Below the pieces are notes generated by a model. That model made no database searches and was not told where the DNA came from. It worked only from the letters and a program-made list of their open reading frames with translations. This document shows positions 17,136-21,749 of a DNA stretch of 35,943 bases, piece after piece (positions within the stretch are counted from its first letter, which is position 1; each line of letters opens with the position of its first letter). The position numbers were made by a program, and so were the translations under genes. Origin of the DNA: an uncultured Actinomycetes bacterium (GTDB lineage: Bacteria; Actinomycetota; Actinomycetes; Nanopelagicales; Nanopelagicaceae); assembly GCA_903953805.1 (NCBI GenBank), contig CAJBLC010000137.1:1-35943 (forward strand), given 5' to 3'.

Positions 17136-17849
17136 ATGACCAATCCTGATGGCAGCGTAAGCCGACGCAACCTCCTCAAATTGGGGGCTGTCGCCGGCGC
17201 ATCCTCGCTTTTGGGCGCTCTTCCAGCCGGGATTGCGGAGGCTGCCTCCCCTGACATCTCCAATGGATCTCGTTCGATGCCACAAGTCGCACTCACCTTC
17301 CATGGTGCCGGCGATAAGGCGATGGCGAACAAACTGCTTGGCATTCTCAAGAGCACGCAGACACCGGTTACGGTCTTTGCCGTTGGCGCCTGGCTCAAAG
17401 CTGATAACTCGATCGCAAAACGGATACTTGATGATGGTCACGATCTCGGAAATCACACAATGAATCACCTGCAGAGCAAGACTCTCTCCGCAGCAAAGTT
17501 GGACTCTGAGATCTCTGGCTGCGCCACCGAATTAATCTCATTGATTGGCAATCACGGAAAATTCTTCCGCCCATCCGGTACTCAATATTCAACGGCTCTC
17601 ATTCGTAAGACTGCACTCAAGTATGGATATAAGAAATGTATCTCTTATGACGTGGACTCTCATGATTACCAAGATGTCGGTAAAGCGGCAGTCGTCAAAA
17701 ATGTGATGAGCACCGTCAAGAATGGCAGCATCGTAAGCCTTCACTTCGGGCATCAAGACACCATCGATGCTCTTCCAACTCTGCTCACCCAGTTACATGC
17801 AAAGGGGCTCACCCCAGTAACTCTCTCAACGATGTTAGGCACCATCTAA
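17136..17849 (+). CDS. Tat-exported NodB-like (polysaccharide deacetylase family) protein with altered motif 1
   Basis: Twin-arginine signal SRRNLLKLGAVAGASSLLGAL; GHDLGNHTMNH, FRPSGTQ and VSLHFGH retained; TFDDGP replaced by TFHGAGD. Confidence 0.85.
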   Translation: MTNPDGSVSRRNLLKLGAVAGASSLLGALPAGIAEAASPDISNGSRSMPQVALTFHGAGDKAMANKLLGILKSTQTPVTVFAVGAWLKADNSIAKRILDDGHDLGNHTMNHLQSKTLSAAKLDSEISGCATELISLIGNHGKFFRPSGTQYSTALIRKTALKYGYKKCISYDVDSHDYQDVGKAAVVKNVMSTVKNGSIVSLHFGHQDTIDALPTLLTQLHAKGLTPVTLSTMLGTI

Positions 17850-18959
17850 ATGAAGCATAAGAAGTTTCTGGCAGTCCTCGCTGCAGCTCCACTTCTCTTT
17901 GGAATCGCGAGTGCAACAACTCCACTAGCTGGAATGCCTGCTGTCACTGATCAGAACGATATCTATGCTGCCGATCGCCCCAATCAACTATCCGCTGTCG
18001 TTGCTAACTTCCCAGAGCGCGTCTACGTTCCCAATCACACATCAAATACGCTGACTGAGATCGATCCCAAAACATTCAGAATTATTCGCACGATCAAGAT
18101 GAAGCGTGGACCGCAACACGTTGTTCCATCATGGGATCTCAAGACGCTGTGGGTGAATAACAACGAAGGTAATTATTTAACGCCAATCGACCCAATGACC
18201 GGCCTTGCTGGAAAGCCGGTATACGTACATGATCCTTATAACCTCTACTTCACGCCAAATGGTAAGTATGCAATCGTCATGGCAGAGGCAGATAAGCAGC
18301 TTGTCTTCCGCGATCCCCACACCATGGCTATTAAGAAGACCGTTCCCGTTCCATGTTCTGGCGTTAATCATGCCGACTGGACGAAGGATGGCAATCACTT
18401 CTTAGTCAGCTGTGAATTTAGTGGAACTCTTCTCTGGGTTAATACGGCAAAGATGGCGATTGAAAAAGTTATGAAGCTGCCGATTACAGCAAATAAGTCG
18501 CCAATGCCGCAGGATGTAAAAATCTCACCTGATGGTTCGACTTTCTATATCGCCGACATGATGTCTGATGGTGTTTGGGTTATGAAGAGCAACAAGGTCG
18601 GTGCATTTACTTTGATCAAGACTGGTAAAGCAGCGCATGGCATGTATGTCACCCGTGATTCCAAGACACTACTCATCACTAATCGTGGTGAAGGATCAGT
18701 CTCTGTTCTCCGTTTCAGCGATAACGCACTCATTGCTAAGTGGAAGATCCCTGGCAATGGCAGTCCTGATATGGGCGGTATCTCTGCTGATGGCACCCAG
18801 TTCTGGGTCTCTGGCCGTTATAACAACGTCGTCTACGTCTTCGATATCGTTCATGGCAAGTTCCTGCGCAGCATCAAAGTAGGAAAGGAGCCACACGGAC
18901 TATCCATCTACCCTCAGCCTGGTAGATATTCCCTTGGCCATACGGGAGTATTTAGATAA
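17850..18959 (+). CDS. Secreted YVTN/YncE-like beta-propeller protein
   Basis: Signal peptide; repeats such as VYVPNHTSNTLTEIDPKTFRIIRTIK, VKISPDGSTFYIADMMSDGVWV, KTLLITNRGEGSVSV. Confidence 0.87.
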   Translation: MKHKKFLAVLAAAPLLFGIASATTPLAGMPAVTDQNDIYAADRPNQLSAVVANFPERVYVPNHTSNTLTEIDPKTFRIIRTIKMKRGPQHVVPSWDLKTLWVNNNEGNYLTPIDPMTGLAGKPVYVHDPYNLYFTPNGKYAIVMAEADKQLVFRDPHTMAIKKTVPVPCSGVNHADWTKDGNHFLVSCEFSGTLLWVNTAKMAIEKVMKLPITANKSPMPQDVKISPDGSTFYIADMMSDGVWVMKSNKVGAFTLIKTGKAAHGMYVTRDSKTLLITNRGEGSVSVLRFSDNALIAKWKIPGNGSPDMGGISADGTQFWVSGRYNNVVYVFDIVHGKFLRSIKVGKEPHGLSIYPQPGRYSLGHTGVFR

Positions 18960-20638
18960 TGAAACTCAAGAGCTCAATCCCTGTGATCCTTGGTCGGATC
19001 GCATATTTGGCTGGTCTCTTTAATATTTTCAGTAACTCGCTTAGGCATTACAACCCACGTGCGGCAAAACTGGGTAACTACTTGCCAGTGTTGATCCACT
19101 CAACGGCATTCGCAACGCAAACCTTCACCGGTGTCGCCATGGTTATCTTGGGTCGCGGACTGATCCGTCGCAAACGTCGTGCCTGGATTTTGAGTCTGAT
19201 TATTTTTAGTATCAATATCGGTTCTGACTTTGCCCGAATCAATCGTCATCCACTTCAAATTGCCGTTGCGGCGGTCTTCATTATCTTGCTCATTGCCTTC
19301 CGAAAAGAGTTTTACGCTATTTCGGATCCCCAAACAAAGTGGTTGCCGCTCATCGGCTTTATTCTCGCCTTTATTGTCATGTTCTCTATTGGGGTACTAG
19401 TACTTCTCAACCGGCATAGAGATTCGTTTGTTGGAAATCCTTCTATTTGGAATATTGTGCTTACCGTCGTTGAAGGCTTCTTCGGTCTAGCAGGTCCAAT
19501 TGAGTTTATTAATTCACGTACATCGGACTATGTCGAGACGACGCTTGCCGCCCTCGGTATTTTCATCTTGCTTGTCCCCCTTGCTCTTTACTTCAGAAGA
19601 GTGAAGCCACTTCCCAAGATGAGCAATGAAGATATCGAGACCGTTCGCAAGCTCATCAAGCACGATACCGACCAAGATTCACTTGGTTATTTCGCAACCC
19701 GTCGCGATAAGAGCGTCATCTGGACTGAGAATAAAAAGGCAGGAATCGCTTATCGTGTTGAGAGCGGAGTCATGCTCGCGAGTGGTGATCCATTTGGTGA
19801 GTTCAGTTTGTGGCCAGATGCTATTGATGCCTTCCTAGAAGAAGCCCGCCTTCATGCTTGGACTCCGGCAGTCATGGGCGCCAGTGATCGCGGTGGCGAA
19901 GTCTGGGTTGAGCATGCAAATATGACCGCCTTCGATATCGGTGATGAAGCGATCATTAAAGTAAAAGATTTCACACTTGAAGGTCGCCCTATGGCCAATG
20001 TTCGCCAGATGGTTAACCGGATTAAACGCAAAGGTTATGTTGCCTATACCGCTCGCTGGTCAGATCTCGATGTCAATATTCGTGTTGAGCTACGTGGTCT
20101 AGCGAAGCAGTGGCGCTACGGAGTTCCTGAGCGTGGCTTCTCGATGTCAATGGATCGCTTTGGTGAAGATATCGATAGCGATGCCGTCATCACTATTGCA
20201 ACTCTCGGTGATGAGATTAAAGGGCTTCTCTACTTCGTTCCGTGGGCAAATGAGGGAATCTCGCTCGACCGCATGCAACGCGATCGCGAAGCTGACGCTG
20301 GTGTGAATGAATTATTGATCGTGCAAACAGTTGAGTGGGCCCGTGAAAATAAGATTGAAAGTATCTCTCTCAACTTTGCAGCTTTCCGTTCGCTCTTTGA
20401 ACGTGCCGAGAAGATCAGTGCCGGGCCAATTACCCGTGGAACGCGCAATCTGATCCGCTTCCTCTCAAACTTCTTCCAAGTCGAATCGCTCTATCGATTC
20501 AATGCCAAGTTTGATCCAGAGTGGCAGACCCGTTATTTGGTCTACCCAAAGGCGATCGATATCGCAAAAATTGGTTGGGCAGCAATCAAGGCGGAGCAAT
20601 TTATTGGAAGCTTTAGATCAAAGGCAGTTAAGGAGTAG
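18959..20638 (+). CDS. MprF-like aminoacyl-phosphatidylglycerol/lipid synthase (TM domain plus C-terminal synthase domain, DUF2156)
   Basis: Hydrophobic N-terminal half, then GVMLASGDPFGEFSLWPDAIDAFLEEARLHAWTPAVMGAS and FSMDRFGEDIDSDAVITIAT-like synthase-domain motifs; 559 aa, no lysyl-tRNA synthetase domain. Confidence 0.87.
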   Translation: MKLKSSIPVILGRIAYLAGLFNIFSNSLRHYNPRAAKLGNYLPVLIHSTAFATQTFTGVAMVILGRGLIRRKRRAWILSLIIFSINIGSDFARINRHPLQIAVAAVFIILLIAFRKEFYAISDPQTKWLPLIGFILAFIVMFSIGVLVLLNRHRDSFVGNPSIWNIVLTVVEGFFGLAGPIEFINSRTSDYVETTLAALGIFILLVPLALYFRRVKPLPKMSNEDIETVRKLIKHDTDQDSLGYFATRRDKSVIWTENKKAGIAYRVESGVMLASGDPFGEFSLWPDAIDAFLEEARLHAWTPAVMGASDRGGEVWVEHANMTAFDIGDEAIIKVKDFTLEGRPMANVRQMVNRIKRKGYVAYTARWSDLDVNIRVELRGLAKQWRYGVPERGFSMSMDRFGEDIDSDAVITIATLGDEIKGLLYFVPWANEGISLDRMQRDREADAGVNELLIVQTVEWARENKIESISLNFAAFRSLFERAEKISAGPITRGTRNLIRFLSNFFQVESLYRFNAKFDPEWQTRYLVYPKAIDIAKIGWAAIKAEQFIGSFRSKAVKE

Positions 20639-21749
20639 TTGCAACTGCGATTGGATTCTGCTCGTTGATCCATTCAAAGGCTGTTGATACAAATGGCTTC
20701 CATACGTTGGTGTTATGACCGCCAATAGGAATTGGGATGTATCGAATCGGTATTAATGTTGAAGCATCTTTCATGAAGTTTTGTGCAGCAGCATTTGTAA
20801 ATTTATCCTTCTGGCTAGCAATAATCAGAAGATGCTGTGTTGAAGGCGTCTTCTTGAGAGATGCAATGAGGTCGTACTCATTTGTTAAGAAGTTCTTTTC
20901 GCGCTTGCTCACACCGAGTGAGAAGAGCGGCTTAAAATACCCGGCGAGCGATACCGCATTTGAATAGAGATCCGGATGGCGAATTGCGACCTGAGATGCA
21001 CACCAACCACCTGTGGAATATCCAAATGAATTCCAAGGTCGGGCATCGACCCCCAAGAAGCGTGTTGCAAATTCATGCATATCGCTGGTGATCCACGTTT
21101 CAACCTGTGGGCCACCGACAAAGTTGAGGCACTCAGTATCTTCTCCAGGTGCAACATTGATCGCAGGGATTATTGCAATTGTGTTTTGGACTCGACCAGC
21201 ATTCTCTAAATTCTCAAGCGTGGTAATCCCATCCATGCTGCCGATCCACGTTTGAGGAACTCCCGGATATCCAGGGAAGAGCTCAACTACTTGATAGTCA
21301 TTTCCAACAGAAGGTGAAGATGGATTCGCCTCCATCTGCGCTGCAATCTTTGGTGGAAGTACAACAAAGACAACATCAGAGATTCCGGATGTAGCACCTT
21401 TAATTACTTCGCGGAAGATCAGACTTCCACCAGCAGTCCTACGTGCCTGAGCGATATCTTTCGCAGAAATCTGGGCAAGGAGATTTGGTGCAATAGCAAT
21501 CTTTGAAAGTTGATTCTTACTGCCGAATAGATCTCCCCAACTTGCATAGAACTCACCGGCACGGTTGATTGTGATGCCCGTTGAAGCGAGGGCAAAGACC
21601 TGGATAAAGATGATGGCGCTAACCCGGCCAGTGATGTGTTGCCACTTGGTGGGGGTGAGCTTGTGCCAAAAGACGACCGTGAGCACGAGCGCAACGAGCG
21701 TGACCAGCCAGAAGAGAATCTCGGTACTGAGGCTGGAAATCAAGAGCAC
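20628..21749 (-). CDS. Membrane-anchored alpha/beta-hydrolase (putative esterase family)
   Basis: N-terminal TM segments; nucleophile elbow [11 protein letters not shown]-terminal [12 protein letters not shown]. Confidence 0.85.

Follow-up and report, generated by a model that had tools for sequence, protein, structure and literature searches.

Bacterial loci are known in which the synthase of an aminoacylated membrane lipid lies beside an esterase or hydrolase. In Corynebacterium glutamicum such a pair is formed by AlaDAGS, an aminoacyl-diacylglycerol (aminoacyl-DAG) synthase, and the adjacent esterase PesT, which, in work by Smith from 2015, was reportedly required for the formation of alanyl-phosphatidylglycerol (Ala-PG). 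A C. glutamicum double mutant has also been described (PMC10580965). In Streptomyces coelicolor, mprF (sco3397) and sco3396 constitute an envelope-stress pair that is induced by vancomycin and wholly dependent on sigma-E, and mutating sco3397 causes sensitivity to vancomycin and bacitracin (PMC6767563). In Mycobacterium, the synthase LysX is followed by Rv1639c, whose membrane-protein product contains an esterase domain (PMC9504009). AcvB, of which PA0919 is a homologue, hydrolyses lysyl-phosphatidylglycerol (Lys-PG) and shares an operon with its synthase (PMC13197417). Here we describe a locus in a stretch of 35,943 nucleotides (hereafter the window; contig CAJBLC010000137.1 of assembly GCA_903953805.1, from an uncultured bacterium of the Nanopelagicaceae), in which a synthase of this kind and a membrane esterase adjoin the genes for an exported NodB-like protein and a secreted propeller.

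We favour the explanation that this locus consists of two actinobacterial envelope pairs that have been joined, pair A being formed by the synthase (LPGS) and the alpha/beta hydrolase (ABH), and pair B by the NodB-like protein and the propeller (PROP), although the chances of this explanation as a whole seem evenly balanced. The more unusual part of the locus is pair B, in which an active site is changed, and this had gone unnoticed in an earlier reading made from the letters of the DNA (the sequence-only reading). The features of the locus, including motif 1 of carbohydrate esterase family 4 (CE4), are the following:

17124 to 17129, plus strand: TAAGAT, predicted -10 box of a leaderless promoter, 6 nt 5' of the NodB ATG
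17136 to 17849, plus strand: atypical NodB-like protein of 237 amino acids, exported by twin-arginine translocation (Tat), TFHG replacing TFDD; TAA stop at 17847-17849
17295 to 17306, plus strand: motif 1 codons T54-F55-H56-G57 of the NodB-like gene (canonical TFDD), from alignment to CE4 structures
17850 to 18959, plus strand: PROP, secreted, YVTN/YncE-like, seven-bladed propeller of 369 amino acids; its ATG abuts the NodB TAA
18959 to 20638, plus strand: LPGS, MprF/LysX-type aminoacyl-lipid synthase of 559 amino acids, with no flippase or lysyl-tRNA synthetase (LysRS) domain
19646 to 20545, plus strand: LPG_synthase_C catalytic domain of LPGS
20628 to 20638: tail-to-tail overlap of LPGS and ABH, 11 bp
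20628 to 21749, minus strand: ABH, membrane-anchored alpha/beta hydrolase, Ag85/esterase-D-like; GTG start

The NodB-like protein belongs to the fold family of the CE4/NodB deacetylases such as PdaB and PgdA, as indicated by its Polysacc_deac_1 profile match (75 bits against a cut-off of 23.1, E 6e-21), and carries a Tat signal (TIGR01409, 18.2 bits with a cut-off of 16.7; Pfam TAT_signal gave 21.6, just under 22.7). In common with PdaB and PgdA it has motifs 2, 4 and 5 and the motif-3 arginine: the metal-binding histidine pair of motif 2, H(S/T)xxH, is kept (H107 and H111), as are Arg145 of motif 3 (RPPYG), D177 of motif 4 and H203 of motif 5. It differs from them in having a propeller as partner and in lacking the Asp-Asp of motif 1, which the CE4 motifs as published require (PMC10967932, PMC4505593). 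In the alignment to CE4 structures, TFDD is absent and the catalytic base and metal aspartate are replaced by His-Gly (TFHG), while the conserved second proline of motif 3 is Ser147. TFHG was present in every locus inspected save one (L056), where the pattern search settled on a different stretch, leaving motif 1 unread. Conservation across 49 NodB sequences is 95% or higher for both metal histidines, the motif-3 arginine, the motif-4 aspartate, the motif-5 histidine and the new motif-1 histidine, H56. Because of the His-Gly in motif 1 and the serine in motif 3, this protein should not be classed among the canonical CE4 deacetylases. The sequence-only reading had recognized the NodB domain and the Tat signal but overlooked the non-canonical active site.

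This protein and the propeller occur together well beyond the locus. In a sample of 346 genomes of the class (thresholds of E 1e-25 for NodB and 1e-40 for PROP), NodB was found in 60, PROP in 77 and both in 56, with 13.4 shared genomes expected. The two genes are adjacent in 43 genomes (33 co-directional with NodB first, 9 divergent and 1 with PROP first), and outside the genus PROP lies beside NodB in 25 of the 26 best-scoring loci fetched. At one locus (L099), two NodB-like genes follow one another and the propeller gene is divergent from both; one of the two has only 21% identity to the window NodB. No description of the pair was found in the literature searched, which was without most subscription journals. 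The altered yet strictly conserved active sites suggest that pair B may be an undescribed surface system. The idea of an exported NodB-propeller module beside the synthase/esterase pair, put forward in the sequence-only reading, agrees with the homologous pairing in other actinobacteria.

PROP shares the YVTN repeat architecture of the YncE/YVTN beta-propellers and matches the YNCE profile (E 2.5e-23), as expected from its description as a secreted YVTN propeller. It is not the YncE equivalog (NF052280, 37.8 against 400 bits), and it also falls below the curated cut-off of TIGR03866. The models of nitrous-oxide reductase and hydrazine synthase were matched far below cut-off; both identities were rejected, the likeness being regarded as generic to propellers. 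PROP is set apart from YncE/YVTN proteins by invariant residues at equivalent positions of its blades and, at the C terminus, by a PQPGRYSLGHTG tail (motif PQPGRYSLGHTGxFR), and around 100 of its positions are at least 95% conserved in 47 sequences. The blade-equivalent positions 90, 131, 174, 221, 263, 307 and 349 are H, N, H, Q, H, D and H, the invariant residues being H90, N131, H174, Q221/D222, H263, D307/M308 and H349. When four proteobacterial homologues are included, making 51 sequences, the blade residues and those of PQPGR-S-GHTG--R are still all invariant. From the spacing of the invariant blade-equivalent residues, 41-47 positions, we infer that one edge of the propeller holds a putative site for a ligand or metal.

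At six loci on plasmids of Burkholderia, Paraburkholderia and Rhizobium, the propeller comes directly after a creatininase-family gene, and the two creatininase sequences read (B. cenocepacia and P. fungorum) have an apparent N-terminal signal peptide. Copper or heavy-metal genes surround the propeller in P. fungorum, B. vietnamiensis, B. cenocepacia and P. aromaticivorans; no such gene lies within 8 kb at the P. phytofirmans locus, and the Rhizobium stretch lacks annotation. These surroundings are a lead only, since plasmids are rich in metal-resistance genes. No constant third partner was seen among the neighbours examined at propeller-only loci.

In pair A, LPGS matches LPG_synthase_C well over the cut-off (261.8 against 27.5 bits, E 8.6e-78), and its relatives in the PDB are MprF and LpiA. 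It lacks the flippase half of bifunctional MprF (NF033480, 218 against 600 bits, with the match starting at profile position 320) and the C-terminal LysRS domain of LysX (NF002821, 437 against 742 bits, the protein stopping at 559 amino acids). In a tree of the catalytic domain, several inner branches of which are weakly supported, it stands beside LysRS-less synthases of other families, outside the LysRS-fused clade. Thus, the profile matches uphold the families that had been given to the Tat-exported NodB-like protein, the propeller and the aminoacyl-lipid synthase. ABH was less clear: its two N-terminal hydrophobic stretches constitute a putative membrane anchor, as had been proposed, but the alpha/beta hydrolase assignment is weak, with esterase/abhydrolase matches below cut-off (8e-4). 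Its conserved residues are S245 (GYSTGG), H345 (GGH) and Cys207/Cys250, and the closest protein of solved structure, judged by sequence, is of the MPT51/Ag85 type, although this match is weak.

Among the matches listed for LPGS and ABH in the class sample, both proteins are present in 51 genomes, and in 38 of these the genes lie within 2 kb of each other, 28 divergent, 7 convergent and 3 co-directional. At one locus (L138) LPGS is followed by three tandem ABH genes, and at another (L142) a LysX-LysRS gene is followed by a related esterase. Pair A is a known kind of pairing of LPGS with a membrane esterase that recurs actinobacteria-wide. The same two families form the sco3397/sco3396 pair, whose published sigma-E promoters have nearly identical counterparts at two Streptomyces loci (L134 and L159). 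However, the S. coelicolor pair is divergent and under extracytoplasmic function (ECF) control, whereas the window pair is convergent and has a leaderless promoter; moreover, the Streptomyces loci inspected have no NodB or propeller beside the LPGS-esterase pair. LysX-Rv1639c resembles the window pair in its synthase, with a related synthase domain, and its esterase-domain membrane protein, but LysX carries a LysRS domain and makes lysyl-diacylglycerol (Lys-DAG). The likeness to AlaDAGS-PesT is one of description, in that an esterase adjoins an aminoacyl-DAG synthase there, and a search for these proteins in Mycobacteriaceae returned mainly LysX-LysRS. With a membrane-anchored esterase beside its LPGS gene, the window is nonetheless like the loci of SCO3396, Rv1639c and PesT.

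Within the genus the two pairs are found together. LPGS is present in 29 of the 31 other genomes of the genus, and in the great majority of loci with enough contig, including those of divergent species, NodB, PROP and LPGS form a compact one-strand array, with ABH usually convergent to LPGS. The sequence-only reading expected similar neighbourhoods in other actinobacteria, for which it proposed a gene-neighbourhood analysis: the layout is kept beyond this genome, in the genus, and homologous pairs occur across actinobacteria, but elsewhere the four-gene set is split into two separate pairs. Its account of the gene junctions was exact when the open reading frames were read again, including the TAA/ATG junction, the 1-nt overlap of PROP and LPGS (TAATG, at 18959) and the 11-bp overlap with ABH. 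Its leaderless promoter also holds, since in relatives whose start is clear TAGGAT, TAAGAT or TATCCT (TAnnnT) is found at about the same distance before NodB. As NodB-propeller lies directly upstream of LPGS in the genus, the three genes are very probably co-expressed from this one promoter.

LPGS occurs in 57 of the 60 NodB genomes (26.9 expected) and, once the two largest families (f18 and f19) are set aside, in 17 of 20 (6.8 expected). In other families, tblastn in 20 loci found no LPGS adjacent to NodB-PROP. One locus of a genome of another class (L227, positions 1-10000) packs into about 7.5 kb an LPGS domain, a PF00756 esterase that overlaps upstream of it, a propeller, a GT4 gene and a NodB with the canonical TFDD. 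This grouping, together with the presence of LPGS in nearly all NodB genomes, suggests that pairs A and B take part in a shared process.

Going by the activity of its family, LPGS would use aminoacyl-tRNA as donor and esterify the amino acid to a glycerolipid of the membrane, the most likely acceptors being diacylglycerol and/or phosphatidylglycerol. ABH, with two helices as its anchor and its Ser-His site presumably facing outward, would take this aminoacyl-lipid as substrate and would more probably pass the aminoacyl group to a second lipid, in a PesT-like manner, than simply destroy the lipid. The NodB barrel, exported by Tat and with its metal site remodelled so that it keeps the two motif-2 histidines and has His-Gly in motif 1, would act on an envelope component together with the secreted propeller, which may bind a ligand or metal through its conserved blade-edge residues. 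A more far-reaching proposal, which we regard as improbable, is that the propeller and a NodB of the TFHG type make up an exported metalloenzyme system of two proteins, undescribed so far and widespread in actinobacteria, that processes the product or the environment of LPGS-type lipid aminoacylation. In its proteobacterial version, NodB would be replaced by an amidohydrolase of the creatininase family that bears a signal peptide.

The sequence-only reading had proposed a synthesis/hydrolysis pair, in which ABH hydrolyses the aminoacyl-lipid made by LPGS as PA0919 does and the NodB-propeller module has no assigned role; AcvB offers the same comparison. The widespread adjacency of ABH and LPGS, the operon shared by AcvB and its synthase and the conserved serine and histidine of the hydrolase site are in line with such a pair, and the pairing of the synthase with a membrane esterase stands. 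However, we take VirJ to be the Pfam family of AcvB and PA0919, and ABH had no match to it in profile searches; thus, the comparison with PA0919 is not one of homology, ABH resembling instead, weakly, the Ag85/esterase-D proteins. In our analysis aminoacyl transfer is more likely than plain hydrolysis, because the C. glutamicum esterase is reportedly needed for Ala-PG and because disruption of the lysX-adjacent gene in Mycobacterium marinum left Lys-DAG unchanged (PMC12637418). The absence of ABH from six close relatives that retain LPGS points the same way. Hydrolysis therefore seems rather unlikely. Somewhat more credible, yet still doubtful, is that the NodB-like protein is a pseudo-enzyme which binds wall glycan without catalysis, with the propeller as partner or scaffold, the pair stabilizing the envelope as the inactive lipoproteins BA0330 and BA0331 do. 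CE4 proteins such as these, with no measurable activity, have structural roles in the wall (PMC4505593), and the loss of the motif-1 Asp-Asp and the change of the motif-3 proline to serine would fit such a role; however, the strict conservation of the remaining site residues and of the new histidine would be unusual in a released active site.

The joining of the two pairs itself has to be weighed against several observations. Their adjacency is seen in this genus only, with several losses: in the sister genus (g4), LPGS adjoins the same tetratricopeptide repeat (TPR) gene without NodB-PROP and without ABH. Six draft genomes of the genus have no ABH match at E 1e-6, LPGS adjoining the inosine monophosphate (IMP) dehydrogenase gene in them, and a seventh genome (G014) holds LPGS and ABH, with NodB and PROP absent at the locus and no NodB match elsewhere. 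The p-values for co-occurrence, such as the hypergeometric 7e-42 for NodB and PROP, ignore shared ancestry. The acid residue of the ABH serine-hydrolase site was not located, single-sequence structure models were poor (pLDDT, the predicted local distance difference test score, of 37 for ABH and 40 for NodB), and the M. marinum result also bears on the role proposed for ABH. The short intergenic space of a streamlined genome may have made neighbours of two pairs with no functional link, a possibility to which we give about the same lesser credence as to the pseudo-enzyme; the restriction of the arrangement to one genus, the separation of the pairs in other families and the g4 locus speak for it. 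On the other hand, the one-strand order is kept across divergent species of the genus, LPGS is almost always present in NodB genomes, and the distant locus L227 groups LPGS, an esterase, a propeller and a canonical NodB.

The host genome has 1.3 Mb in 170 contigs and is 89% complete, with one LPGS and one NodB-family gene detected. Near the locus, a haem-copper oxidase cluster extends from 23470 to 28419, with a CtaG-type assembly factor followed by COX2 and COX1 genes; two proteins encoded inside it (24415-25143 and 27814-28419) have no Pfam match. Further on lie an SGNH-domain protein (31137-32069) and an SMP-30/gluconolactonase-like protein (32133-33011). A role of the locus in anti-phage defence was rejected, as there was no PADLOC match.

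The sequence-only reading is therefore partly supported: it had seen a real, conserved arrangement and named the right families, and its hydrolysis story leaned on a different hydrolase family. Lipid aminoacylation shapes the resistance of actinobacteria to antibiotics and envelope stress, and the roles of the partner esterases are disputed; here the pairing occurs in several gene orientations, and natural losses of the esterase allow its function to be tested. Tractable, cultivated actinobacteria, Streptomyces and Embleya among them, carry the NodB-propeller pair, an exported unit that is conserved and has an altered active site.

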